From assembly GCF_018069865.1 (NCBI RefSeq), contig NZ_JAGQDG010000009.1:62001-126000 (forward strand): a stretch of 64,000 nucleotides of DNA, in the 5' to 3' direction. This document shows, piece after piece, positions 48,960 through 61,021 of the stretch. Position 1 is the first letter of the stretch. Each line of letters opens with the position of its first letter. The translations under genes were made by a program, and so were the position numbers. The notes below the pieces were generated by a model, which saw only the letters and a list, made by a program, of their open reading frames with translations, searched no databases and had not been told where the DNA came from. Source of the stretch: Ideonella paludis. Lineage in GTDB: Bacteria; Pseudomonadota; Gammaproteobacteria; Burkholderiales; Burkholderiaceae_C.

Positions 48960-49442
48960 TCAGAGCGGCTTTTCGCGGCGGGTTTCCAGATAAGCCTTGA
49001 TGGACCACATGGCTTCTTGCGACAAGGTGCCTTCAAACGGAGGCATGTAGACGGCACCGTTGCGGACGCGGCCCCGGCGCGCCGTGGTCAGGAAGAACTC
49101 ATCGATTTCATTGACGCAGGCTTGCTTGCGCTTGGCGTCCTTCAGATTGGCACATTCCCCATCCAGCTTGCGCAAGTCCGGCGCAATGCCACCAGAGATG
49201 GCTTCCAGGCCATGGCAACGCGCGCAGTTCTGGTTGTAGGCCGAAGTGCCAATCTTGATGGCTTCGGCGTGGCCCCGGTAAGGGTTCTCAGCGCGCCAAG
49301 CCTCACCGAGTTGCGGCAAGCTCTTGGTGTCCACAGCCTGCGGCGTGACATCACCGTGGGCACTGGCGGCGCCTGCGGCCAGGGCCAGCACAGTCATTGA
49401 GGCCAAGCGAGCCAAGCTCAGAGAAGTGCGAGAAGTGATCAT
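48960..49442 (-). CDS. pedF: Cytochrome c-550 (PedF-like)
   Basis: A 160-residue periplasmic monoheme cytochrome. A signal peptide (about 1-28) is followed by heme motif CARCH (about residue 74) and the sixth-ligand region YMPPFEGTLSQEAMWSIKAYLE. The extra pair of Cys (GECANLKDAKRKQACVNEID) is a feature of the c550_PedF group. It should take electrons from a quinoprotein ethanol/alcohol dehydrogenase. ATG 49442 has TAGGAGA upstream. A sigma-54 promoter lies 70 nt upstream and the MoxJ-like gene follows. Confidence 0.9.
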   Translation of the reverse strand: MITSRTSLSLARLASMTVLALAAGAASAHGDVTPQAVDTKSLPQLGEAWRAENPYRGHAEAIKIGTSAYNQNCARCHGLEAISGGIAPDLRKLDGECANLKDAKRKQACVNEIDEFFLTTARRGRVRNGAVYMPPFEGTLSQEAMWSIKAYLETRREKPL

Positions 49443-51848: not shown

Positions 51849-52811
51849 CTACTCTTCCTCGATCTGCCGCCAAGCCCGCTGCCAATTCAAAGCATGGCGC
51901 GGGTGCTCGGCCCAGCCGGACGGCAGGCCGGGCCAGCGCGCAGGGGCGTCGGTTTCCAGGCCGCCGCCGGCTTGTCTGGCGCGGATCGTCCGTGCCAGTG
52001 TGTCCAGATAGTCGGCAGACTGGGCCAACAAAGCCGGGCCTTGGGCTGAGCCCTGCTCTGGCAGCCAGGTCAAGGCATTGCCATCGTGACGCACCAAGGC
52101 GCTCAGGTGCTTCAGGCTGGCTTGCAAGGTGCGCAAGTCGGCGTCGCGCAAATCGGGCGGCCCATCCGCCCACAAAAGGCCGGGCGCCGACCAAAGTGCA
52201 GCGCGCTTGAGCCGCCACACCAGCACCGGCTGCTGAGGCGTTCGCTGCAGCCTCCACCACACCCAAGGCCCCAACTCGCCGTGATCGCCTGACACCAAGC
52301 CGCCCGCCATGCCTTGCTCACCGGGCACCGTGACCACGCTGTCAGCGCCCAGATCCTGGGCCGCCGCCCCCATCCGCACCTTCAAGCGCTCCTCACAATG
52401 GGCACACTGCTGGTGCATGGCCTCTGCCACGGCTTGATGAGCCCAGAGGGCAGCCCTCGGCCAAGCCCTGTTGCCCAGCACCAGCTCGGGCCGAGCCCAG
52501 GGATTGACGATGTCGCTGACCTGCCAGCCGGTTTGCTGGGCAAGGCTGCAGGCCAAGGCTTGGCCCATCTTCGGCGACGGCCCGCTGCCCAAGAGCCACA
52601 CCCGCCCCTCGCTGGGCACCTGCACCGCCATCAGGGCCGACACCCGGCCGCGATTGGCAGCATCGGCATCACCCACCTCACCGGACAGCCAATACGCCTG
52701 ATCGGTCAAGCGCTGCCACACCAAGCCATCAGTCGAACAGGGCGCGGCCCACACTGGGCACAGCCACAGGCTGATCAGCAGGCCGACGGCCCAACGACAC
52801 TGTGTCAACAT
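51849..52811 (-). CDS. Degenerate metallo-beta-lactamase-like protein (quinoprotein relay metallohydrolase family)
   Basis: A 320-residue exported protein (signal peptide about 1-23). It follows the pattern of quinoprotein relay zinc metallohydrolases: AANRGRVSALMAVQV ... VWLLGSGPSP ... VSDIVNPWARPELVLGNRAW. Where active members have N-T-H-x-H-P-D-H-x-L-G-N, this one reads N103-PWARPEL-VLGN, so all first-shell zinc ligands of that motif are missing. It is probably a pseudoenzyme with a binding or scaffold role. ATG 52811 has AGGAG upstream. It is convergent with the regulator gene and divergent from the pqqB-like operon. Confidence 0.7.
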   Translation of the reverse strand: MLTQCRWAVGLLISLWLCPVWAAPCSTDGLVWQRLTDQAYWLSGEVGDADAANRGRVSALMAVQVPSEGRVWLLGSGPSPKMGQALACSLAQQTGWQVSDIVNPWARPELVLGNRAWPRAALWAHQAVAEAMHQQCAHCEERLKVRMGAAAQDLGADSVVTVPGEQGMAGGLVSGDHGELGPWVWWRLQRTPQQPVLVWRLKRAALWSAPGLLWADGPPDLRDADLRTLQASLKHLSALVRHDGNALTWLPEQGSAQGPALLAQSADYLDTLARTIRARQAGGGLETDAPARWPGLPSGWAEHPRHALNWQRAWRQIEEE

Positions 52812-52873
52812 CGAACACTCCTCTCTGCCCTGGCCAGGGCCGCTGTCACATCGGCGGATCATCGCCAGGTTTT

Positions 52874-52891
52874 CTGAGGGGCGACCCTCAG
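52874..52891. other. Inverted repeat in the pqqB-like upstream region
   Basis: CTGAGGG-GCGA-CCCTCAG is a 7-bp perfect inverted repeat about 45 nt upstream of the -24 element of the pqqB-like promoter. It could be an activator site, but it does not match the CCGGTC repeat near pedF. Confidence 0.35.
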
Positions 52892-52932
52892 TCTCATCAC
52901 TCAATTCGTCCTCGGAGTCGCCTCTGAGCCGG

Positions 52933-52948
52933 CGGCACAAGAATTGCA
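52933..52948 (+). promoter_or_regulatory. Sigma-54 (-24/-12) promoter of the pqqB-like/ABC operon
   Basis: CGGCAC-N5-TTGCA matches the RpoN consensus with the essential GG and GC at the right 10-bp spacing; only the first T is changed. It lies about 100 nt before the pqqB-like ATG. Confidence 0.75.
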
Positions 52949-53048
52949 CTGTGTGTCAGTTATTGCTCACATCGAGCCACAACGCACAGCGCACCCGCTT
53001 CATGCTCTTGACCGACATCTTCGCACCTGCGCCGGGAGAACAACGCCC

Positions 53049-53891
53049 ATGAAGGCCGTGATTCTTCAAGGCGCACCCAGCGCCCCGCCGCCCCCTGCTG
53101 CCTTAGGGCACGCCGCACGCACCTCGCGGCGCAGAGGCACAACCATGAGCCAAAACGCCAGAGACACAGCGCCCACCAGCCGTCATGGTGTTGTGGCGTT
53201 GTCCGACACCGGCGCGCAATGGGTGCTGGTCAACATGGCCGCCAATGTGGCCGACCGCCTGCAAGCCGATGCTGCCGCCAGCAACCACATTGGCTGGTGC
53301 GAGGCTCAGCACCGCGCCATCGTGTTGACCGATGCGCAGGTGGACCATGTGGCTGGCTTGCTCTCGCTGCGAGACGGCAGCCCCATCGACCTCTACGCCA
53401 CCCCGGCCGTCTTTGAGGCCTTGAGCCGCAGCCTGCCGGTACTGCCCGTGCTGCAGCATTACTGCGGCGTGCACTGGCACATCATCCCAGTCGCGGGTGA
53501 GACGCAATGCGCCAGCTTCCGCGTTGAGCAACTGCCGCATCTGGAGTTCACGGCGCTGGCCACCCAGGGCCCGACACCGCCCTACCTGGCCGAGCATGAA
53601 ACCCAATCCGCCGCCGGGCACAGCATTGCCATTGCCGTGCGCGACCGCGACAGCGGCCAGCGGCTGTTCTGCGCGCCAGGCGCAGTGGCCCTGGGCTATA
53701 CCGAGCTCGACTGGATGCGCAGCGCCGACTGCGTGTTGATTGACGGCCTGACCACCTGGCCCGCCGATGAGCCCGAAGACGACTGGCAAGCCCGACGCAA
53801 AGTGCTGCTAGGCGTCCCCCCGCGCGCGCAAGGCGGGGCTTGCCCGGATGGCTTTGAGTGCGCCAGTGATGGCATGGTGATCGACCTTTGA
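53049..53891 (+). CDS. Diverged PqqB-like protein lacking the metal motifs
   Basis: A 280-residue protein that follows PqqB along its middle: GVVALSDTGAQWVLVNMAANV, IVLTDAQVDHVAGLLSLRDGSPIDLYAT, VLPVLQHYCGVHWHIIPV, RLFCAPGAV, MRSADCVLIDGL and the end ASDGMVIDL. However, the N-terminal GGGFPQWNC-x-C-x2-C zinc motif is replaced by APSAPPPPAALGHAART. The C-terminal segment with HINNTNP is absent, so the protein ends about 20 residues short. It is probably not a working PqqB hydroxylase. ATG 53049 has GGGAGAA upstream. It is the first gene of the sigma-54 operon, 4 nt before the ABC ATPase gene. Confidence 0.78.
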   Translation: MKAVILQGAPSAPPPPAALGHAARTSRRRGTTMSQNARDTAPTSRHGVVALSDTGAQWVLVNMAANVADRLQADAAASNHIGWCEAQHRAIVLTDAQVDHVAGLLSLRDGSPIDLYATPAVFEALSRSLPVLPVLQHYCGVHWHIIPVAGETQCASFRVEQLPHLEFTALATQGPTPPYLAEHETQSAAGHSIAIAVRDRDSGQRLFCAPGAVALGYTELDWMRSADCVLIDGLTTWPADEPEDDWQARRKVLLGVPPRAQGGACPDGFECASDGMVIDL

Positions 53892-53895
53892 CACC

Positions 53896-54609
53896 ATGCT
53901 CCACATCGACACCCTGACCAAGCGCTACGGCCAGCGCACGGCGCTGAATCAGCTCAGCCTGCGCCTGCCTGCGGGCCAGTTCACGGCCTTGCTGGGGCCC
54001 AACGGCGCGGGCAAATCCACCTTGTTCCAAGTGTTGACGGGCTTGTTTGTGGCCGACGCGGGCGAGGCCGTGGTGGCGGGGCATTCCCTGCGCACCGAGG
54101 CAGTCAAGGCCCTGAAGCACATGGGCGTGGTCTTCCAGCAAATGTCGCTGGACCTGGACCTCAGCGTGCGCCGCAACCTGCAATTCCATGCCGACCTGCA
54201 CGGCCTGCCCCGCCAAGTCGCGCAGCAACGCATCCAAGAGGGCTGCGAGGCCTTGGGCACGGCCGCTGACCTAGACCGCCCAGTGCGTGAACTCTCTGGC
54301 GGCAACCGCCGCAAGGTGGAGTTGGTGCGCGCACTCCTGCACCGCCCGGCCGTGTTGTTGATGGACGAGCCCACCGTGGGACTGGACCCCAAGTCCCGCC
54401 GCGACCTGCTGGCCGCCGTGAAGGCCGACGTGGCCGCCCGCCAAACCACGGTGCTGTGGGCCACCCACCTGGTCGAAGAAGCCGAGGCCGCCGACCGCGT
54501 GGTGGTGTTGCATAAAGGTCAGTTGCTGGCCGATGGTCGGCCCGACGACGTTCAAGTTTCCCTCGGCGGCGCCAGCTTGGAAGCCGCCTTTATTCACGCC
54601 ACCCAATAG
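53896..54609 (+). CDS. ABC transporter ATP-binding protein, PQQ-alcohol-dehydrogenase-associated
   Basis: A 237-residue ABC ATPase with Walker A GPNGAGKST, the Q-loop VVFQQMSLDLDLSV, signature LSGGNRRK, Walker B VLLMDEPTVGLD and the switch His in ATHLVEE. It belongs with the downstream ABC-2 permease and periplasmic protein of the type found beside quinoprotein alcohol dehydrogenases (PedA-C-like). The transported compound is unknown. It starts 4 nt after the pqqB-like stop. Confidence 0.9.
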   Translation: MLHIDTLTKRYGQRTALNQLSLRLPAGQFTALLGPNGAGKSTLFQVLTGLFVADAGEAVVAGHSLRTEAVKALKHMGVVFQQMSLDLDLSVRRNLQFHADLHGLPRQVAQQRIQEGCEALGTAADLDRPVRELSGGNRRKVELVRALLHRPAVLLMDEPTVGLDPKSRRDLLAAVKADVAARQTTVLWATHLVEEAEAADRVVVLHKGQLLADGRPDDVQVSLGGASLEAAFIHATQ

Positions 54610-54629: not shown

Positions 54630-55604
54630 ATGACTCGCCTCGCCCTTCGCAGCACGCTGGCTGCCGCAGCCGCCCTGGCCCTGAGCACCGCCGCATCGGC
54701 CCAAACCGCCTGGGTCTCCAGCGAAAAGGACAACAGCCTGGCCTTGGTGGACTTGAAGACCATGGCGGTCACCGGCACGGTGGCCACCTGCAAGCGGCCT
54801 CGGCACATGCAAATCGCCCCGGGCGGCAAGCAACTGATGGTGGCCTGTGGCGACTCACAGCAGGCCGATGTGATCGACCTCGCGACCAAGAAGTCCACCG
54901 CGAAGATCGGCCTGGGTGATGACCCCGAAATCTTCGACGTCTCGCCCGATGGCAAGACGCTCTACGTCAGCAATGAGGAAGACGCTGAAGTCGGTGTGAT
55001 CGACATCGCCAGCAACAAGCGCAAGAGCGCCATCAAGGTCGGTGAAGAGCCCGAAGGCGTGCTGCTCTCCAAAGACGGCAAGACGCTTTACGTGACCTCC
55101 GAAGTCGCCTCCTTGGTGCATGTGATCGACACGGCGACGGGCAAAGTCACCCAGAACGTCAAGGTCGGCAAGCGCCCGCGCCGCTTTGCCCTGACGCCCG
55201 ATGGCAGCCAACTCTGGGTCACCAATGAGCTGGGCGCCAGCGTCAGCATCCTCAGCACCAAAGACCACAGCGTCTTGGCCACCCTCAAGTTTGCCGTCAA
55301 GGGTGCCCGCGAGGCCGACATCACCCCGGTAGGCTTGGCCATGTCGGCCGACGGCAAGCAAGCATTTGTGGCCCTGGGCAAGGCCAACCATGTGGCCTTC
55401 GTGGATGTCGCCAGCCGCAAGGTGACCCAACTCGTGCTGGCCGGCAAGCGGGCCTGGGGCCTGGGGCTGAACAAGGCCGGCGACCGGCTGCTGGTGGCCA
55501 ATGGTCTGTCGGATGACCTGACCATCATCGATGTGCCGGGCGCCAAAGCCCTCAAGACCGTAGCCGTGGGCCGAGTGCCGCACAGCGTGGTGGTGGTCGA
55601 ATGA
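54630..55604 (+). CDS. Secreted YVTN beta-propeller protein, PQQ-catabolism-associated
   Basis: A 324-residue periplasmic protein. A signal peptide (about 1-23, ending ASA|QTAW) is followed by about seven YVTN-type blades (DNSLALVDLKTMAVTGTV, GKTLYVSNEEDAEVGVIDIASNK, GKTLYVTSEVASLVHVIDTATGKV, GSQLWVTNELGASVSILST and so on). This matches the beta-propeller that regularly lies within PQQ-linked ABC operons. SD AGGAG precedes the ATG. It overlaps the next gene by four bases. A role as docking or binding platform is inference. Confidence 0.9.
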   Translation: MTRLALRSTLAAAAALALSTAASAQTAWVSSEKDNSLALVDLKTMAVTGTVATCKRPRHMQIAPGGKQLMVACGDSQQADVIDLATKKSTAKIGLGDDPEIFDVSPDGKTLYVSNEEDAEVGVIDIASNKRKSAIKVGEEPEGVLLSKDGKTLYVTSEVASLVHVIDTATGKVTQNVKVGKRPRRFALTPDGSQLWVTNELGASVSILSTKDHSVLATLKFAVKGAREADITPVGLAMSADGKQAFVALGKANHVAFVDVASRKVTQLVLAGKRAWGLGLNKAGDRLLVANGLSDDLTIIDVPGAKALKTVAVGRVPHSVVVVE

Positions 55605-56749
55605 AGCGCTGGGGCTGCGCACTGTTGATGCTGGGGGCGGCCAGCGTTGAGGCCGCCGCGTTCAAGGCCACGCTGCTGGTGCTGGACGACGACCCCCGCT
55701 TACAACGCAGCCGCATCGAGCGCGCCTATCTGGGCCACCCCACGGGCCCAGCGGCTGACGCGGTGGCCGTGGCGATCAAAGAATCCAAGCTGGAGCTGGA
55801 TGCGGTGGGCGCCAGCCTCAGCATCGCCACGGTGTCAGCGGCCGATGTCAAGGGCCTGCAAGACGCCGCCCGCAAAGCCGAAAAAGCGGGTGACGTGGCC
55901 CTGCTGGCCGACCTGCCCGCCGATGCCTTGTTGGCGGTGGCCGATGCCGTCAAGTTGCCGGTGCTCAACCTCAGCGCCACGGACGACCGCCTGCGCCAGC
56001 AAGACTGCCGGGCGCAGCTCTGGCATGTCGCCCCCAGCGAGCGCATGCGCGCCGATGCGCTGGCCCAAACCCTGGTCGCCCGCAAATGGAGCACGGTGCT
56101 GCTGCTCACCGGCCCCAGCCCTGCAGACGCCCAGCGCAGCGCGGTGGCCCAGGCCGCACTCAAGCGCTATGGCCTGAAGCTGGCAGGGGCCAAGCCTTTC
56201 AAGCTCTCCGGGGACCCGCGCGAGCGCGACTTGGCCAACGCCACCTTGCTGACCCAAGGCAGCCATGATGTGGTGTGGGTGGTGGACAGCGACGGCGAGT
56301 TTGCCCGCAGCCTGCCCTACCGCACCGCCACACCGCGCCCTGTGGTGGGCGACGGCGGCCTGGTGGCCTTGGCTTGGCATGCTCAGTATGAGCGTTACGG
56401 CGCGCCGCAGGTCTCTCGCCGCTTCAGCAAAGCCAATGCCCGCCCCATGACCGCGCAAGACTGGCAGGCCTGGCTCGGCGCCAAGGCGCTCGCCGCCGCG
56501 GTGATGGCCGCCCCTAAAGGGCCTGCGGCGGCCGTGGCCAAAGCGCTGGCCAGCGCTGAGTTGGACGGCTCCAAGGGCGTAGCCCTCTCCTTCAGGCCTT
56601 GGGACGGCCAGTTGCGCCAGACCCTGCTCCTGACCGACGGCCAAGGTGTCATCAGCACCGCGCCCATCGAGGGCATCTTGCACCCCAAGAACGCGCTGGA
56701 CACCGTGGGCGCTGATGCCCCGGAAAAGCTCTGCAAGGTGGCACGATGA
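55601..56749 (+). CDS. Periplasmic substrate-binding protein, PQQ-ABC type
   Basis: A 382-residue Leu/Ile/Val-type periplasmic binding protein with a signal peptide (about 1-18). Features are FKATLLVLDDDPRLQRSRIERAYLGHPTGPAADAVAVAIKES, LADLPADALLAVADAVKLPVLNLSATDDRLR, CRAQLWHVAPSERMRADALAQTLVARKW and the C-terminal IEGILHPKNALDTVG. It is of the kind seen between the beta-propeller and the permease in PQQ-linked clusters. Coupled on both sides by four-base overlaps (ATGA). Confidence 0.85.
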   Translation: MKRWGCALLMLGAASVEAAAFKATLLVLDDDPRLQRSRIERAYLGHPTGPAADAVAVAIKESKLELDAVGASLSIATVSAADVKGLQDAARKAEKAGDVALLADLPADALLAVADAVKLPVLNLSATDDRLRQQDCRAQLWHVAPSERMRADALAQTLVARKWSTVLLLTGPSPADAQRSAVAQAALKRYGLKLAGAKPFKLSGDPRERDLANATLLTQGSHDVVWVVDSDGEFARSLPYRTATPRPVVGDGGLVALAWHAQYERYGAPQVSRRFSKANARPMTAQDWQAWLGAKALAAAVMAAPKGPAAAVAKALASAELDGSKGVALSFRPWDGQLRQTLLLTDGQGVISTAPIEGILHPKNALDTVGADAPEKLCKVAR

Positions 56750-57567
56750 CGCACGCCCTGCAGGCGCTGCGCGCCATCGTGCTGCGCGAGGTGATGAAGT
56801 TCATGCGGCAAACCAGCCGCTTGGCCTCGGCCGTGGTGCGCCCGCTGCTGTGGCTGGCGGTGTTTGCAGCGGGCTTTCGCAATGTGTTTGGCGTGGCCAT
56901 CAACGAGCCTTACGACACCTACATCCCTTATGACGTCTACATCGCGCCAGGCCTTGTCGGCATGGTGCTGCTGTTCAACGGCATGCAGTCCAGCTTGGCC
57001 ATGGTCTATGACCGCGAAATGGGCCTGATGCGTCTGCTGCTCACGGCCCCGCTGCCACGCTGGTGGATCTTGTTCGCCAAGCTCAGCGCCACCGCCCTGC
57101 TCAGCCTGCTGCAGGCGGCGGCCTTTGTGGCGGTGGCGGCCCTGCTGGGCACCACCTTGCCGCTGTGGGGGCCGCAGACGCCGATGGTGCTGCTGGCGGC
57201 GGTCAGTGCGGCGCTGATGTTGGGCGCCTTGGGCCTGCTGCTGTCGGTGCACATCAAGCAGTTGGAGAACTTTGCCGGCACGATGAACTTCGTGATCTTC
57301 CCCATGTACTTCATGTCCACCGCGCTCTATCCGCTGTGGAAGCTTGAAGAATCCGGCGCCGAATGGGTCTGGTGGATCGCTCGCTTCAACCCCTTCACCC
57401 ATGCCGTGGAGTGGATGCGCTTTGCGCTCTATGACAAAGACCCCGGCGTCGCGCCCTATGTGGTGCTGGGCACCTTGGCGGTATGCTTCGCCGCTGCCGC
57501 TTGGGGCTATGACCCGCAGCGCGGCTTTGGGGCGCTCACCAAACGTGGCCCAGGAGGCCCCCCATGA
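56746..57567 (+). CDS. ABC-2 type permease, PQQ-alcohol-associated (PedC-like)
   Basis: A 273-residue inner-membrane permease with about six hydrophobic segments and the ABC-2 core RPLLWLAVFAAGFRNVFG, YIAPGLVGMVLLFNGMQSSLAMVYDREMGLMRLLLTAPLPRWWIL and FAGTMNFVIFPMYFMSTALYPLW. It should form an exporter with the ATPase three genes upstream. It overlaps the binding-protein gene and the MotA-like gene by four bases each, so the envelope module downstream is in the same operon. Confidence 0.9.
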   Translation: MTHALQALRAIVLREVMKFMRQTSRLASAVVRPLLWLAVFAAGFRNVFGVAINEPYDTYIPYDVYIAPGLVGMVLLFNGMQSSLAMVYDREMGLMRLLLTAPLPRWWILFAKLSATALLSLLQAAAFVAVAALLGTTLPLWGPQTPMVLLAAVSAALMLGALGLLLSVHIKQLENFAGTMNFVIFPMYFMSTALYPLWKLEESGAEWVWWIARFNPFTHAVEWMRFALYDKDPGVAPYVVLGTLAVCFAAAAWGYDPQRGFGALTKRGPGGPP

Positions 57568-58196
57568 AGTTGTTCTCTTGGGCCGCAGGCTCGGTGCTGG
57601 ACACCGCCGAGCGCTTGTTCTGGGCCTGGGCCTTGTCGGCCGCGCTGGTCTTGTTTGGCGCCGCCTGGATGCAGCATCGCGGCCTGTGGCAAGCCCTGAT
57701 CCAAGGCGACCCCAGCGGCATCAGCTTGGGCATCGTGGGCCTGAGCGTGCTGACCACCGGCTGGTGCGGGCGTCGCGCCTGGCTGCTGCGCCAGCAGGCC
57801 CAAAGCGGCACGGCCTCCTCCTGGCGCGCCGCCTGGCGAGCGGACCGCCGCCAAGCGCCGGACATGGCAGCCAGCCTGCTGTCAGAGCGCAGCCACGGCC
57901 CCCATGAAACCGCTTGGTGGCTGGCTGCGGCCACCATCAAGCTGGGCCTGCTGGGCACGGTGGTGGGCTTCATCGTCATGGCCACGCAGATCGGCCGCAT
58001 GCCCACGTTTGACATCGACCAGGTCCAGGCCCTGCTCAAGCAAATGACCCAAGGCATGGCCATTGCGCTCTACACCACCCTGGTGGGCCTGATGGCCAAT
58101 CTGTGGCTGGGCCTGCAATTGCTGCTGCTGGACCGCATGGCCGACCGCATCGTGGCCGACATCGTGGCCGAGCCTCTGGGCGAGCCTGGAGCTTGA
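57564..58196 (+). CDS. MotA/TolQ/ExbB-like proton-channel protein
   Basis: A 210-residue inner-membrane protein with four predicted helices (about 19-36, 53-68, 118-141, 163-189). The last two carry the family core IKLGLLGTVVGFIVMA and MTQGMAIALYTTLVGLMANLWLG. The cytoplasmic loop between helix 2 and 3 is only ~50 residues. Start overlaps the permease stop by ATGA. The next gene, 4 nt away, encodes an ExbD-like partner, so the pair should form an ion-driven motor or transducer distinct from TolQR at 18.4 kb. Confidence 0.85.
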   Translation: MKLFSWAAGSVLDTAERLFWAWALSAALVLFGAAWMQHRGLWQALIQGDPSGISLGIVGLSVLTTGWCGRRAWLLRQQAQSGTASSWRAAWRADRRQAPDMAASLLSERSHGPHETAWWLAAATIKLGLLGTVVGFIVMATQIGRMPTFDIDQVQALLKQMTQGMAIALYTTLVGLMANLWLGLQLLLLDRMADRIVADIVAEPLGEPGA

Positions 58197-58200
58197 TGCC

Positions 58201-58803
58201 ATGGCCTTGCTGCGCCGACGCCGCCATGACGAGATCGACCCCTTCAGCGATCTGTTGTTCAACACCTTGCTGGCCTTTGTCATGCTGTTTGCGGTGGCTT
58301 TGGTGGTGATGAACCCCAAGGCCAAAACGGGCGTGATCGACGCCAAGGCCGAGTTCATCATCACCGTGACCTGGCCCGACCTCAACCCCAATGACATCGA
58401 CACCTGGGTCGAGGACCCGGCTGGCAACAAGGTGTGGTTCCGGGCCCGCGAGGGCGGCATGATGCATTTGGACCGTGACGACCGCGGTTTGGCCAACGAC
58501 ACGCTGGTGATCAATGGCCAGCAAGTGGTCAACCCACTGAACCAAGAGGTGGTGACGGTGCGCGGCTTTGCGCCGGGCGAGTACACCGTCAACCTGCACT
58601 ATTACGACACCAAGAACGGAGAGCCTGTCACGGCCACGGTCTCGGTCGTCAAGGTCAACCCGCGTGCCGAGGTGGTGTTCTATGGCACGGTGGACTTGGC
58701 CCGCAAGGGCGACGAGGCCACAGCCGCGCGCTTTGTGGTCAACCGGGACGGCGGGGTGGAGGGCGTCAACACCCTGCCCAAGACACTGATCGAGAGGATG
58801 TGA
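58201..58803 (+). CDS. ExbD/TolR-like anchor fused to a DUF2135-like periplasmic domain
   Basis: 200 residues. The N-terminus is basic, then DEIDPFSDLLFNTLLAFVMLFAVALVVM (about 10-37) forms one helix with an Asp (D17) placed like the proton-path Asp of TolR/ExbD/MotB. The periplasmic part (about 50-200) is a beta-sandwich-like domain: ITVTWPDLNPNDIDTWVEDPAGNKVWF, VTVRGFAPGEYTVNLHYYDT, which resembles the DUF2135/YfaP pattern (D-x-D-x-x-V-x-D-P-x-G). There is no OmpA/TolR-type domain. It is coupled with the preceding channel gene and overlaps the next gene. The combination is unusual. Confidence 0.7.
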   Translation: MALLRRRRHDEIDPFSDLLFNTLLAFVMLFAVALVVMNPKAKTGVIDAKAEFIITVTWPDLNPNDIDTWVEDPAGNKVWFRAREGGMMHLDRDDRGLANDTLVINGQQVVNPLNQEVVTVRGFAPGEYTVNLHYYDTKNGEPVTATVSVVKVNPRAEVVFYGTVDLARKGDEATAARFVVNRDGGVEGVNTLPKTLIERM

Positions 58804-59300
58804 TGGCCACCGATGCTTTGCTGTGGGCCTATATCGCCCTGGTGTTCTTGGTGGGCTTGGCCTGCTTGGCCTCGGCCTGGCCGCGGGCCTTGAAGGCGGC
58901 CTTGGTGCTGGCCACCGTAGGCCTTTATTTTTATGCGGAGCATGCGCTGGATGATGTCTGGGGCCGGCCTTCGCGCGCCGCCTTGCCCGAGCGCTTTGTG
59001 CTGCTGGCGGCGGTGATCGAAGAGCCCAGCAAAACCAAGCCCGGCGCGCTGTTTGTGTGGGTCAATGCGCTGGAGAACGGCAAACCCCTGGCCGAGCCCC
59101 GCGCCTATCGCCTGCCCTACACCAAAGACCTGCACAGCCTGCTCAATGAAGGTCTGAAGAAGGTCCGCCAAGGCGTGAGCCAAATGGGCACGGCCGAGCC
59201 CAAGCGCGGCCCCAAAGGCTTCTCCTGGCTGCGGCCGGGCAGTGACGAGCAGGAGGTCAAGATCCGCGACCTGCCCGTGCCGCAACTGCCTGAGAAGTGA
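58803..59300 (+). CDS. Membrane protein of unknown function in the envelope module
   Basis: A 165-residue protein with two N-terminal membrane helices (about 6-24 and 28-46: ALLWAYIALVFLVGLACLASAW, ALKAALVLATVGLYFYAEHAL). A soluble C-terminal part (about 65-165) contains VLLAAVIEEPSKTKPGALFVWV. I recognise no family. ATG 58803 with GAGAGGA upstream is favoured over GTG 58800. Position between the ExbD-like and lipoprotein genes suggests it belongs to the same complex. Confidence 0.6.
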   Translation: MATDALLWAYIALVFLVGLACLASAWPRALKAALVLATVGLYFYAEHALDDVWGRPSRAALPERFVLLAAVIEEPSKTKPGALFVWVNALENGKPLAEPRAYRLPYTKDLHSLLNEGLKKVRQGVSQMGTAEPKRGPKGFSWLRPGSDEQEVKIRDLPVPQLPEK

Positions 59301-59312
59301 GGCAGACCCGCG

Positions 59313-60041
59313 ATGTCTGAGGTCTCCCTTCTGCGACGAGGAACCGCGCTGCTGGCGGGGTTGGGCTTGGGCTTGGCCCTGAGCGCCTGCGCGCCCAAGC
59401 CGGTGGGCCACGACCTGTTTCCCCTGGGAGAAGGTCATCAATGGCGTTACGACGTGAAGACCGAGTGGGAGAACAACGTCATCGAGCATGAACCCTTGGT
59501 GATGGAAACCTTGGGCCAAAGCCCCTTGGACGATGGCCCCGCGTGGCTGCGCCGCAGCGATGCCGGCATCAGCTACTGGCTGCGCGGGGACGAGACCGGC
59601 ATCTACCGCGTGGCCACCAAGAGCGAGTTGGACGCCGACCCCCGCTACGACAAAGAACGCCGCTATGTGCTGAAAGCCCCGCTCACAGCGGGCAGCACTT
59701 GGCAAAGCGATACCACCGCCTATCTGCTGCAGCGCCGGCAAGAATTCCCCCGCGAGATCCGCCACACGCACCCCGCCGTCAAGATGGTCTACAGCATTGA
59801 AGCCACCGGTCTGGTGGTGGACAGCCGAGCGGGCCGCTTTGAGGGCTGCGTCAAGGTCAAGGGGCAAGCCAGCCTGCGCCTGTTTGCCGACCCTGTGGTG
59901 GGCTGGAAAGACATGCCCCTGATCACCCAAGAGTGGTACTGCCCCGGCGTGGGCCTGGTGCGCTTGGTGCGCGAGGAGCCAGCGAACTCCACCTTTTTGA
60001 CCGGCGGCACCTTGACGATGGAACTACTGGAATGGAAATGA
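59313..60041 (+). CDS. Lipoprotein of unknown function in the envelope module
   Basis: A 242-residue lipoprotein with lipobox LSAC (about residue 26). The mature part is mostly beta (HQWRYDVKTEW, YWLRGDETGIYRVAT, KMVYSIEATGLVVDSRAGRFEGCVKVKGQ, WYCPGVGLVRLVREEP), a pattern seen in outer-membrane-attached lipoproteins. Two Cys (EGCVK, WYCPG) may pair. It follows 12 nt after the membrane-protein gene and overlaps the TctC gene by four bases, so it is inside the operon. Confidence 0.7.
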   Translation: MSEVSLLRRGTALLAGLGLGLALSACAPKPVGHDLFPLGEGHQWRYDVKTEWENNVIEHEPLVMETLGQSPLDDGPAWLRRSDAGISYWLRGDETGIYRVATKSELDADPRYDKERRYVLKAPLTAGSTWQSDTTAYLLQRRQEFPREIRHTHPAVKMVYSIEATGLVVDSRAGRFEGCVKVKGQASLRLFADPVVGWKDMPLITQEWYCPGVGLVRLVREEPANSTFLTGGTLTMELLEWK

Positions 60042-61021
60042 TCACCCGCCGTCGCGCCTTGAGCCTTGGCGCTGGGCTGAGCCTGGCCGCCTTGGCGCCG
60101 CTGGGCAGCCGAGCACAGGGCGCCGAGCCCAGCTTTCCGCACCGACCCATCACCCTGTGGGTGCCTTGGCCCGCCGGGGGCGCCACCGACCTCACCATGC
60201 GCGTGCTGGCCGAAGCCGCTGGCCGCCACCTGGGCCAAAAAGTGCTGATCGAGAACCGGCCCGGCGCGGGCGGCACCTTGGCCATGCCGGTGCTGCAGCA
60301 AGCCGCGCCCGACGGCTACACCATTGCACAGTTGCCCCAGCCGGCGCTGCGTGCGCCCTGGACCCAAAAGGTGATGTGGGACCCGATCCGCGACACCACG
60401 CCGCTGCTGCAACTCAGCGGCGTGACCTTCGGCATCTTGGTGCCGGCGGCCAGCCCCATCAAAACCCTGGACGACCTGTTCGCGCTGGCCAAAGCCAAAC
60501 CCGGCGAGCTGAGCATAGCCACCAACGGCGTTGGCACCACCCCGCATGTGGTGATGGATGAACTGCTGGGCCACCGAGGCCTGCGCTATGTGCACGTGCC
60601 CTACAAAGGCACGGCCGAGCAGATGCTGGCGGTGTCCTCCGGCCAGGTGCAGGTGGGCGTCAACTCCAACGGCTTTGCGCCTTATGTGGACAGCGGCAAG
60701 CTGCGCCTGATCGCCACTTTGGCCGAGCACCGCACCAAGCGCTGGGCCCAAGTGCCCACGCTCAAAGAGCTGGGCCATGGCATTGTGGCGACCTCGCCCT
60801 ATGGCCTGGTCGGCCCCAAAGGTCTGCCCGGCGCCGTCGTACAGACCTTGCACGACGCCTTCAAAGCCGCACTGTTCGACCCGGCCCATCTGGCCGAACT
60901 CGCCAAGTACGACCAAGAGCCGCTCTACCTGGGCGCTGACGACTACGGCCGCAGCCTGCGTGAGGCCTACGCGGCCGAGAAACGCACGGTGGACAGACTG
61001 GGGCTGGCCAAAGCAGGGTGA
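60038..61021 (+). CDS. Tripartite tricarboxylate-type solute-binding protein (TctC/Bug family)
   Basis: A 327-residue periplasmic protein with a twin-Arg-type signal ([25 protein letters not shown]). The Bug-family motifs are PHRPITLWVPWPAGGATDLTMR, LGQKVLIENRPGAGGTLA, DGYTIAQL, HVPYKGTAEQMLAVSSGQVQVG and GLVGPKGLPG. No tctA/tctB genes are nearby, which is common for orphan Bug proteins in this order. ATG 60038 overlaps the lipoprotein stop (ATGA), placing it at the end of the sigma-54 operon. The ligand is unknown. Confidence 0.9.
   Translation: MITRRRALSLGAGLSLAALAPLGSRAQGAEPSFPHRPITLWVPWPAGGATDLTMRVLAEAAGRHLGQKVLIENRPGAGGTLAMPVLQQAAPDGYTIAQLPQPALRAPWTQKVMWDPIRDTTPLLQLSGVTFGILVPAASPIKTLDDLFALAKAKPGELSIATNGVGTTPHVVMDELLGHRGLRYVHVPYKGTAEQMLAVSSGQVQVGVNSNGFAPYVDSGKLRLIATLAEHRTKRWAQVPTLKELGHGIVATSPYGLVGPKGLPGAVVQTLHDAFKAALFDPAHLAELAKYDQEPLYLGADDYGRSLREAYAAEKRTVDRLGLAKAG

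Follow-up and report, generated by a model that had tools for sequence, protein, structure and literature searches.

A conserved four-gene membrane module with a MotA/TolQ-family channel is tied to pyrroloquinoline quinone (PQQ) alcohol oxidation

Four adjoining genes continue an ABC operon of Ideonella paludis

The window analyzed here, a stretch of 64,000 nucleotides, belongs to the 4.8-Mb genome of Ideonella paludis and carries four consecutive plus-strand genes, which we refer to as the module. An earlier interpretation based on the letters and open reading frames of this stretch (the sequence-only reading) had placed a MotA/TolQ-like channel, an ExbD-like anchor, a two-helix membrane protein and a lipoprotein here, and all four open reading frames were recovered at this place, overlapping or nearly abutting. 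The first encodes the channel, a protein of 210 amino acids (chan, 57564..58196), which was assigned by its match to Pfam family PF01618, a TolQ profile alignment and hydropathy. After a spacing of 4 nt follows the anchor gene (anch, 58201..58803), whose product combines one transmembrane helix with a predicted periplasmic β-sandwich. Its end overlaps the start (GTG 58800 or ATG 58803) of the gene for the two-helix membrane protein (tm2, 58800..59300; 165-166 amino acids), which was characterized by an alignment of 33 sequences, hydropathy and charge. Another 12 nt downstream begins the gene for the lipoprotein, a DUF3108-like half-barrel of 242 amino acids (lipo, 59313..60041). At its upstream end, the channel gene shares 4 nt (ATGA) with the gene of an ATP-binding cassette (ABC) permease, an overlap already seen in the sequence-only reading, and the module is continuous with an operon of the PedA1A2BC type.

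Channel, anchor and tm2 form a conserved core

We compared 80 named loci, the best 80 of 198 confirmed in a search with the lipoprotein family that was blind to PQQ. These loci vary in length, span up to 10 kb on each side and overlap with the class sample described below (L135/L136 are apparently the same contigs as L048/L042). In 75 of the 80, the channel, anchor and tm2 genes share the strand of the lipoprotein gene and are no more than 3.5 kb away from it. Four of the remaining five lack the channel alone, and in these the locus begins no more than 1.3 kb from the lipoprotein gene; from the fifth, L132, only tm2 and part of the lipoprotein were recovered. Records among these best 80 of 198 include Sphaerotilaceae, Comamonadaceae, Oxalobacteraceae, Polynucleobacter, Thiothrix, Thiotrichaceae and Algiphilus as well as metagenome-assembled genomes (MAGs) labelled Rhodospirillales and Nitrospirae. 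The closest named relative in this lipoprotein search is Ideonella sp. MAG2, with 92% identity in the lipoprotein and 98% in the anchor.

Of 274 genomes sampled from the class to which the window belongs, 31 encode an anchor homologue, including one with a distant anchor only (G076) and one with a broken copy (G164); so do 17 of 398 genomes sampled from the phylum, ten of which fall into one family outside the class, probably of Alphaproteobacteria. Anchor homologues were also found in 26 of 36 genomes of an order in which one genome encodes a methane or ammonia monooxygenase. Among 34 class loci and the window, anchor and tm2 are present in 35 of 35 and the channel in 33 of 35, as counted with a channel profile that included two ExbB-like paralogue rows; the channel is missing from a broken copy (L062) and from a distant homologue on a 3.3-kb contig (L064). 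The lipoprotein gene adjoins these three genes on the same strand in seven of the 35 loci, window included, and follows them on the opposite strand in L039 (longer stretch L159). Channel, anchor and tm2 are the conserved core of the module. The sequence-only reading had named separate occurrence of the four genes in other genomes as evidence against itself, and we found such separation for one of them: a three-gene core without adjacent lipoprotein exists, mostly without PQQ neighbours.

An anchor tree of 53 rows, midpoint-rooted and containing only every fourth named locus (L062, L086 and the partial L089 were omitted), sets apart a lineage of eight genomes with full support, two of which are about 1 Mb in size. 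Two loci, L063 and L064, encode far more distant anchor homologues, both with a tm2-like neighbour and L063 also with a channel-like one, and may represent another family with a similar layout.

The four-gene form is strongly tied to PQQ alcohol oxidation

For each locus we scored eight PQQ markers: the dehydrogenase, PedF, SoxYZ, SoxH, the CXXCW protein, the propeller, the binding protein and the PqqB-like protein. At least one of them is present in 73 of the 80 named loci and, where the sequence is 15 kb or longer, in 50 of 52; the PQQ dehydrogenase itself was found in 51 of the 80. Many of the records with the PQQ-adjacent module are betaproteobacterial, and several are gammaproteobacterial. 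In the class sample, six of the seven four-gene loci (window included) show a marker. As controls, we examined the three-gene loci of the class, of which at least one of 18 has a marker (L039) and none of the 11 with at least 15 kb, the loci of the separate lineage (0/8) and those outside the class (1/9). The longer stretch of the L039 locus (L159:1931-12982) contains the core, the inverted lipoprotein gene, a PQQ dehydrogenase, the binding protein and the propeller, and is a rearranged form of the PQQ-linked cluster. In four three-gene genomes (G091, G120, G164 and G213), the contig with the anchor gene also contains a partial match to the PQQ binding protein, at a distance of 19-29 kb. As in the window, a PedC-type permease gene lies at most 300 nt upstream in 27 of the 75 four-gene loci, and in 15 of these an in-frame start overlaps the permease stop by 1-4 nt.

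The same association was found between whole genomes. In the 274-genome class sample, which is spread over families, a PQQ alcohol dehydrogenase is encoded by 22 of the 31 genomes with the module and by 26 of the 243 others (Fisher p 1e-12; this and the following p values ignore kinship). The corresponding counts are 19/31 and 1/243 for the lipoprotein family (p 3e-20), 19/31 and 8/243 for full or partial matches to the PQQ binding protein (p 2e-15), and 8/31 and 7/243 for the full-length binding protein only (p 4e-5). Outside the separate lineage and G076, 21 of 22 module genomes have the dehydrogenase, the exception being G200, which is 64% complete; among genomes carrying the lipoprotein family, 19 of 20 do. 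Therefore, the organisms in which the four-gene form operates are PQQ alcohol oxidizers, and this probably extends to the whole larger group. The tie to alcohol oxidation drawn in the sequence-only reading thus holds for the four-gene form, which is strongly linked to it by neighbourhood and by genome co-occurrence. A strictly PQQ-bound core was rejected, as most three-gene loci lie elsewhere. Ten genomes (G008, G066, G070, G119, G120, G133, G140, G200, G235 and G246) have two to four lipoprotein-family matches each, mostly distant from the module. Only at G066:C75 and G119:C6 is a PQQ dehydrogenase located within a few kb of such a copy, and for the distant copies the PQQ link is therefore one of genome co-occurrence, not of adjacency.

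PQQ alcohol oxidation often depends on rare-earth metals. We take the second Asp of the WDFDG-type motif to mark lanthanide enzymes and a Ser at this position to mark the calcium type. The loci contain 57 dehydrogenase frames, with two loci counted twice: 47 carry the lanthanide-type Asp, two carry Ser and eight are untyped. This majority is only suggestive, as the lanthanide type may be the commoner one anyway. The two PQQ alcohol dehydrogenases of the window's genome are encoded on other contigs (L177 and L178), one with WDFDG and the other with WDFSG.

The channel belongs to the MotA/TolQ/ExbB family

The window channel scores 34.2 bits against Pfam MotA_ExbB (PF01618), above the cut-off of 22.9, and belongs to the MotA/TolQ/ExbB family, as the sequence-only reading had it; it is the lowest-scoring of seven PF01618 proteins in its genome. 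The channel family profile aligns weakly with both pore segments of Escherichia coli TolQ, at 13.5 bits (28.7 bits if the profile includes two ExbB-like paralogue rows). Thr132 and Thr172 of the channel fall in the two segments that are aligned to these pore segments. Thr172, whose segment pairs with A-T-A-I-G of TolQ, is kept in 108 of 108 channels. At the first pore position, 132, the 107 aligned channels have either Thr (48) or Lys (59), and the window keeps Thr. We presume that the TolQ counterparts are T178, the pore threonine of the last helix, and T145, the second pore threonine. Family-averaged hydropathy gives four hydrophobic stretches.

The anchor combines an acidic membrane motif with a non-standard head

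In an AlphaFold2 model, the anchor consists of a transmembrane helix (residues 14-37) followed by a β-sandwich. The helix begins at an ExbD/TolR-like P-F-x-D motif, which is part of a longer D-P-F-x-D (Asp13, Asp17). Asp17, a membrane Asp near the start of the helix, is kept in 107 of 111 anchors. Within the β-sandwich, the acidic residues D65, D67, D93 and D94 are invariant.

The description of this protein as ExbD-like with a DUF2135-like domain fared less well. Its single helix and Asp17 motif stand, and we dropped the rest, since the anchor matches neither family. DUF2135 (PF09906) reaches 13.3 bits with the window anchor, under the cut-off of 22, and is matched at E ≤ 1 by 20 of 64 anchor family members (best E 0.0022); with a score below the cut-off, we regard this likeness as a hint and not as a match. 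In its predicted fold, the head appears closest to TerD. In sequence, TerD (PF02342) was not among the Pfam matches at E ≤ 1 of the window anchor or of the 64 members, and an hhalign comparison with a TerD profile was not significant, this profile being small (nine sequences, one row wrongly extracted). Foldseek alone gave no useful match for the anchor (best E 3.6e-3, TM 0.15), and a sequence search against the PDB returned nothing at E ≤ 1.

In one lineage (L045, L050, L051, L052 and L171-L176) the anchor carries Ala in place of Asp17 together with Lys in place of Asn21. There, two copies of tm2 are present in eight of ten loci and none was detected in the other two, and one member genome has a methane/ammonia monooxygenase gene.

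The two-helix protein and the lipoprotein

The two helices proposed for tm2 were borne out by two family-averaged hydropathy peaks at residues 7-23 (2.77) and 29-45 (1.66), the second of which is weak in the window protein taken alone. A C-terminal P-E-K is conserved in the alignment of 33 sequences, and the soluble part of the protein is probably periplasmic. A PDB sequence search with tm2 was empty at E ≤ 1, and no Pfam family scored above its cut-off.

Likewise, the lipoprotein assignment was confirmed: Cys26 is invariant across 63 aligned sequences, and the lipobox pattern is present at 72 of the 80 named loci. The +2 residue gives a mixed membrane signal, with Asp in 13 of the 72. DUF3108_like (PF21347) scores 13.1 bits with the window lipoprotein, under the cut-off of 27, and is matched at E ≤ 1 by 59 of 63 family members (best 1.1e-8). 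The half-barrel fold resembles YmcC-like and LolA/LolB proteins.

A candidate proton-driven complex and its alternatives

Somewhat better than even, in our judgement, are the chances that the four-gene form is a TolQR/ExbBD-like, proton-powered inner-membrane complex that serves quinoprotein alcohol oxidation. In such a complex, a ring of channel subunits would surround a dimeric anchor helix, and the non-standard β-sandwich head of the anchor would project into the periplasm. The two-helix protein would act as a membrane adaptor and the lipoprotein as a partner, and the proton drive, with the predicted ion flow and force, would run through Asp17. Located beside a PedA1A2BC-type ABC transporter, the complex would work in PQQ alcohol oxidation, its task being the energized handling of something that periplasmic quinoproteins need, whether this is a metal, PQQ or help with their maturation. 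Support for a task in metal or cofactor supply comes from the neighbouring transporter, whose type is required for growth at low La3+, as described for Pseudomonas putida PedA1A2BC (PMC6839425), and from the suggestive majority of lanthanide-type dehydrogenases in the loci (47 of 57). A more specific version, which we put forward as a long shot, is that the head of a proton-driven motor binds Ca2+ or a lanthanide and, together with the lipoprotein partner, loads the metal (or PQQ) into quinoprotein dehydrogenases. To our knowledge, such a motor would be the first with a role in enzyme maturation, as distinct from transport, motility or envelope care.

A number of observations weigh against this proposal. 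No ExbD/TolR family was matched by the window anchor at E ≤ 1, and the 21 families hit by 64 anchor members do not include one either. A comparison of the anchor with E. coli TolR gave no significant match, and the alignment that pairs Asp17 with TolR Asp23 is statistically weightless (-0.1 bits). Such weak matches count against a motor. Asp17 is replaced by Ala in four of the 111 anchors, all from the one lineage with duplicated tm2, and in six of another 12 loci from a single order, and position 132 of the channel is Lys in the 59 channels mentioned above (L041 and loci between L066 and L144). Against the role in alcohol oxidation stand the 26 genomes with a PQQ dehydrogenase and without the module, and the separate lineage, in which only one of eight genomes has the dehydrogenase and two of eight the full-length binding protein. 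Since the core exists in this lineage, PQQ is not its sole use, and this lineage does something else with the core. Moreover, locus counts are not independent events because many named loci come from related Burkholderiales, and a word search of the paper on the P. putida ped cluster showed no MotA/TolQ/ExbB gene named there.

The loss of Asp17 (with the Asn21 change) in one lineage and the Lys at position 132 in many relatives would also fit a non-conducting scaffold, in which proton coupling was lost or never present and the channel-anchor pair holds the anchor head and the lipoprotein near the quinoproteins. The weak TolQ match and the bottom rank of the channel among the seven PF01618 scores point the same way. 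We nevertheless consider a scaffold unlikely: Asp17 and Thr172 are kept in nearly all and in all sequences, respectively, and the window retains both together with Thr132, a position that also varies in true motors such as MotA. Equally doubtful is a general envelope-maintenance motor, for example in peptidoglycan or outer-membrane care, that became PQQ-linked by capture in some lineages. It would account for the three-gene loci, most of which lack PQQ neighbours, for the separate lineage of eight genomes with its two members of about 1 Mb, and for locus L034 (7800-12345), where the core has an L,D-transpeptidase, a DUF302 protein and a vWA-FHA protein as neighbours, possibly as a second form of the system. 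On the other hand, the dehydrogenase is present in 21 of 22 module genomes outside the separate lineage and G076, and in 19 of the 20 genomes that encode a member of the lipoprotein family.

Less probable still is an ExbBD-like alternative energizer of an outer-membrane receptor that imports lanthanides or lanthanophores. The fact that P. putida needs PedA1A2BC to grow when La3+ is scarce (PMC6839425) and the 47 of 57 lanthanide-type frames would be in line with it, as would the TonB dependence of the lanthanide receptors LanA and LutH, stated in PMC12482762. Yet no TonB-like transducer was recognized among the four proteins (TonB_C matched two of 64 anchors, best E 0.14), and lanthanide-type dehydrogenases may be the commoner kind anyway. 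Finally, a dense operon could have brought together four membrane genes that have nothing to do with each other. Nothing beyond the weak family matches of the single proteins speaks for such chance neighbours, and we reject them as highly improbable in view of the conserved gene order, since 75 of the 80 named loci have the complete set of four and the core is contiguous in the class sample.

Relation to known systems

The proposed complex resembles TolQ-TolR and ExbB-ExbD, which are motors of a pentamer and a dimer driven by protons, in its Pfam channel family, in the weak alignment to both TolQ pore segments, and in the downstream one-helix anchor with a P-F-x-D motif. It differs from TolQ, which has three hydrophobic stretches, by the four of the channel family, and from ExbD/TolR by an anchor that does not match these families and whose modelled head looks like TerD. 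Where the known systems have TolA/TolB/Pal or TonB, the module has tm2 and a DUF3108-like lipoprotein. A likeness to Zorya ZorAB is limited to a weak match of the channel to the ZorA model NF033915 (16.2 bits, far under the curated cut-off of 100), and the other neighbouring genes are different. TerD proteins bind calcium; the anchor differs from them in having no Pfam or profile-profile match. One paper (PMC7159879) instead lists TerD domains as possible binders of nucleotide derivatives.

The general idea of TolQ-like rings with unusual partners is already published. In PMC12204202, vWA proteins are proposed as partners of TolQ-like motors, and its authors state that further such systems remain to be discovered. 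These systems share with the module a tolQ-like gene, a partner outside ExbD/TolR with a pore Asp, and an unknown function; the module head, in contrast, is a β-sandwich and not a vWA domain, and the word PQQ does not occur in the available text of that paper. For the combination of the module with PQQ, no description was found in the literature searched, which covered few subscription papers and no bioRxiv preprints; word searches of papers that deal with the lanthanome, the ped cluster or the evolution of MotAB did not reveal a description of the module either. The claim that no such system has been described therefore stands for this literature, apart from one transcriptome study in which two "MotA/TolQ/ExbB" transcripts fall with the calcium methanol dehydrogenase genes when La replaces Ca (PMC6277846). 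These genes, MEALZ_3990/3991 of Methylomicrobium alcaliphilum 20Z, may or may not be homologues of chan and anch; if they are, lanthanide control is already on record.

The module may be a so far undescribed part of the PQQ alcohol-oxidation system. It adds a candidate that can be deleted to the question of how lanthanides or calcium and PQQ reach periplasmic alcohol dehydrogenases, and it bears on what the PedA1A2BC transporter works with. If the proposal is true, the list of proton-driven envelope motors gains one with a new kind of head.

Neighbouring genes in the window

The ABC operon upstream of the module is a PedA1A2BC-type PQQ-ABC operon, of the same kind as in P. putida. Headed by a gene for a PqqB-like metallohydrolase (52944..53891; TIGR02108, 145 bits, under the cut-off of 245), it continues on the plus strand with the PedB-like ATP-binding subunit (53896..54609; TIGR03864, 319 bits, cut-off 302), the PedA2-like PQQ-associated β-propeller (54630..55604; TIGR03866, 321 bits, cut-off 287), the PedA1-like substrate-binding protein (55601..56749; TIGR03863, 362 bits, under the cut-off of 413.6) and the PedC-type permease (56746..57567; TIGR03861, 356 bits, cut-off 241). 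Three of the four NCBIfam models of the PedA1A2BC set thus score above their cut-offs. The PQQ island also includes cytochrome c-550 PedF (48960..49442, minus strand; TIGR04494, 205 bits, cut-off 122) and, in the listed order, a sigma-54 type regulator between PedF and a weakly SoxH-like protein (51849-52949, minus strand). Downstream of the module, also on the plus strand, lies the gene of a TctC-type (tripartite tricarboxylate) binding protein (60038-61021). Its ATG overlaps the stop codon of the lipoprotein gene, and the operon may therefore extend further.

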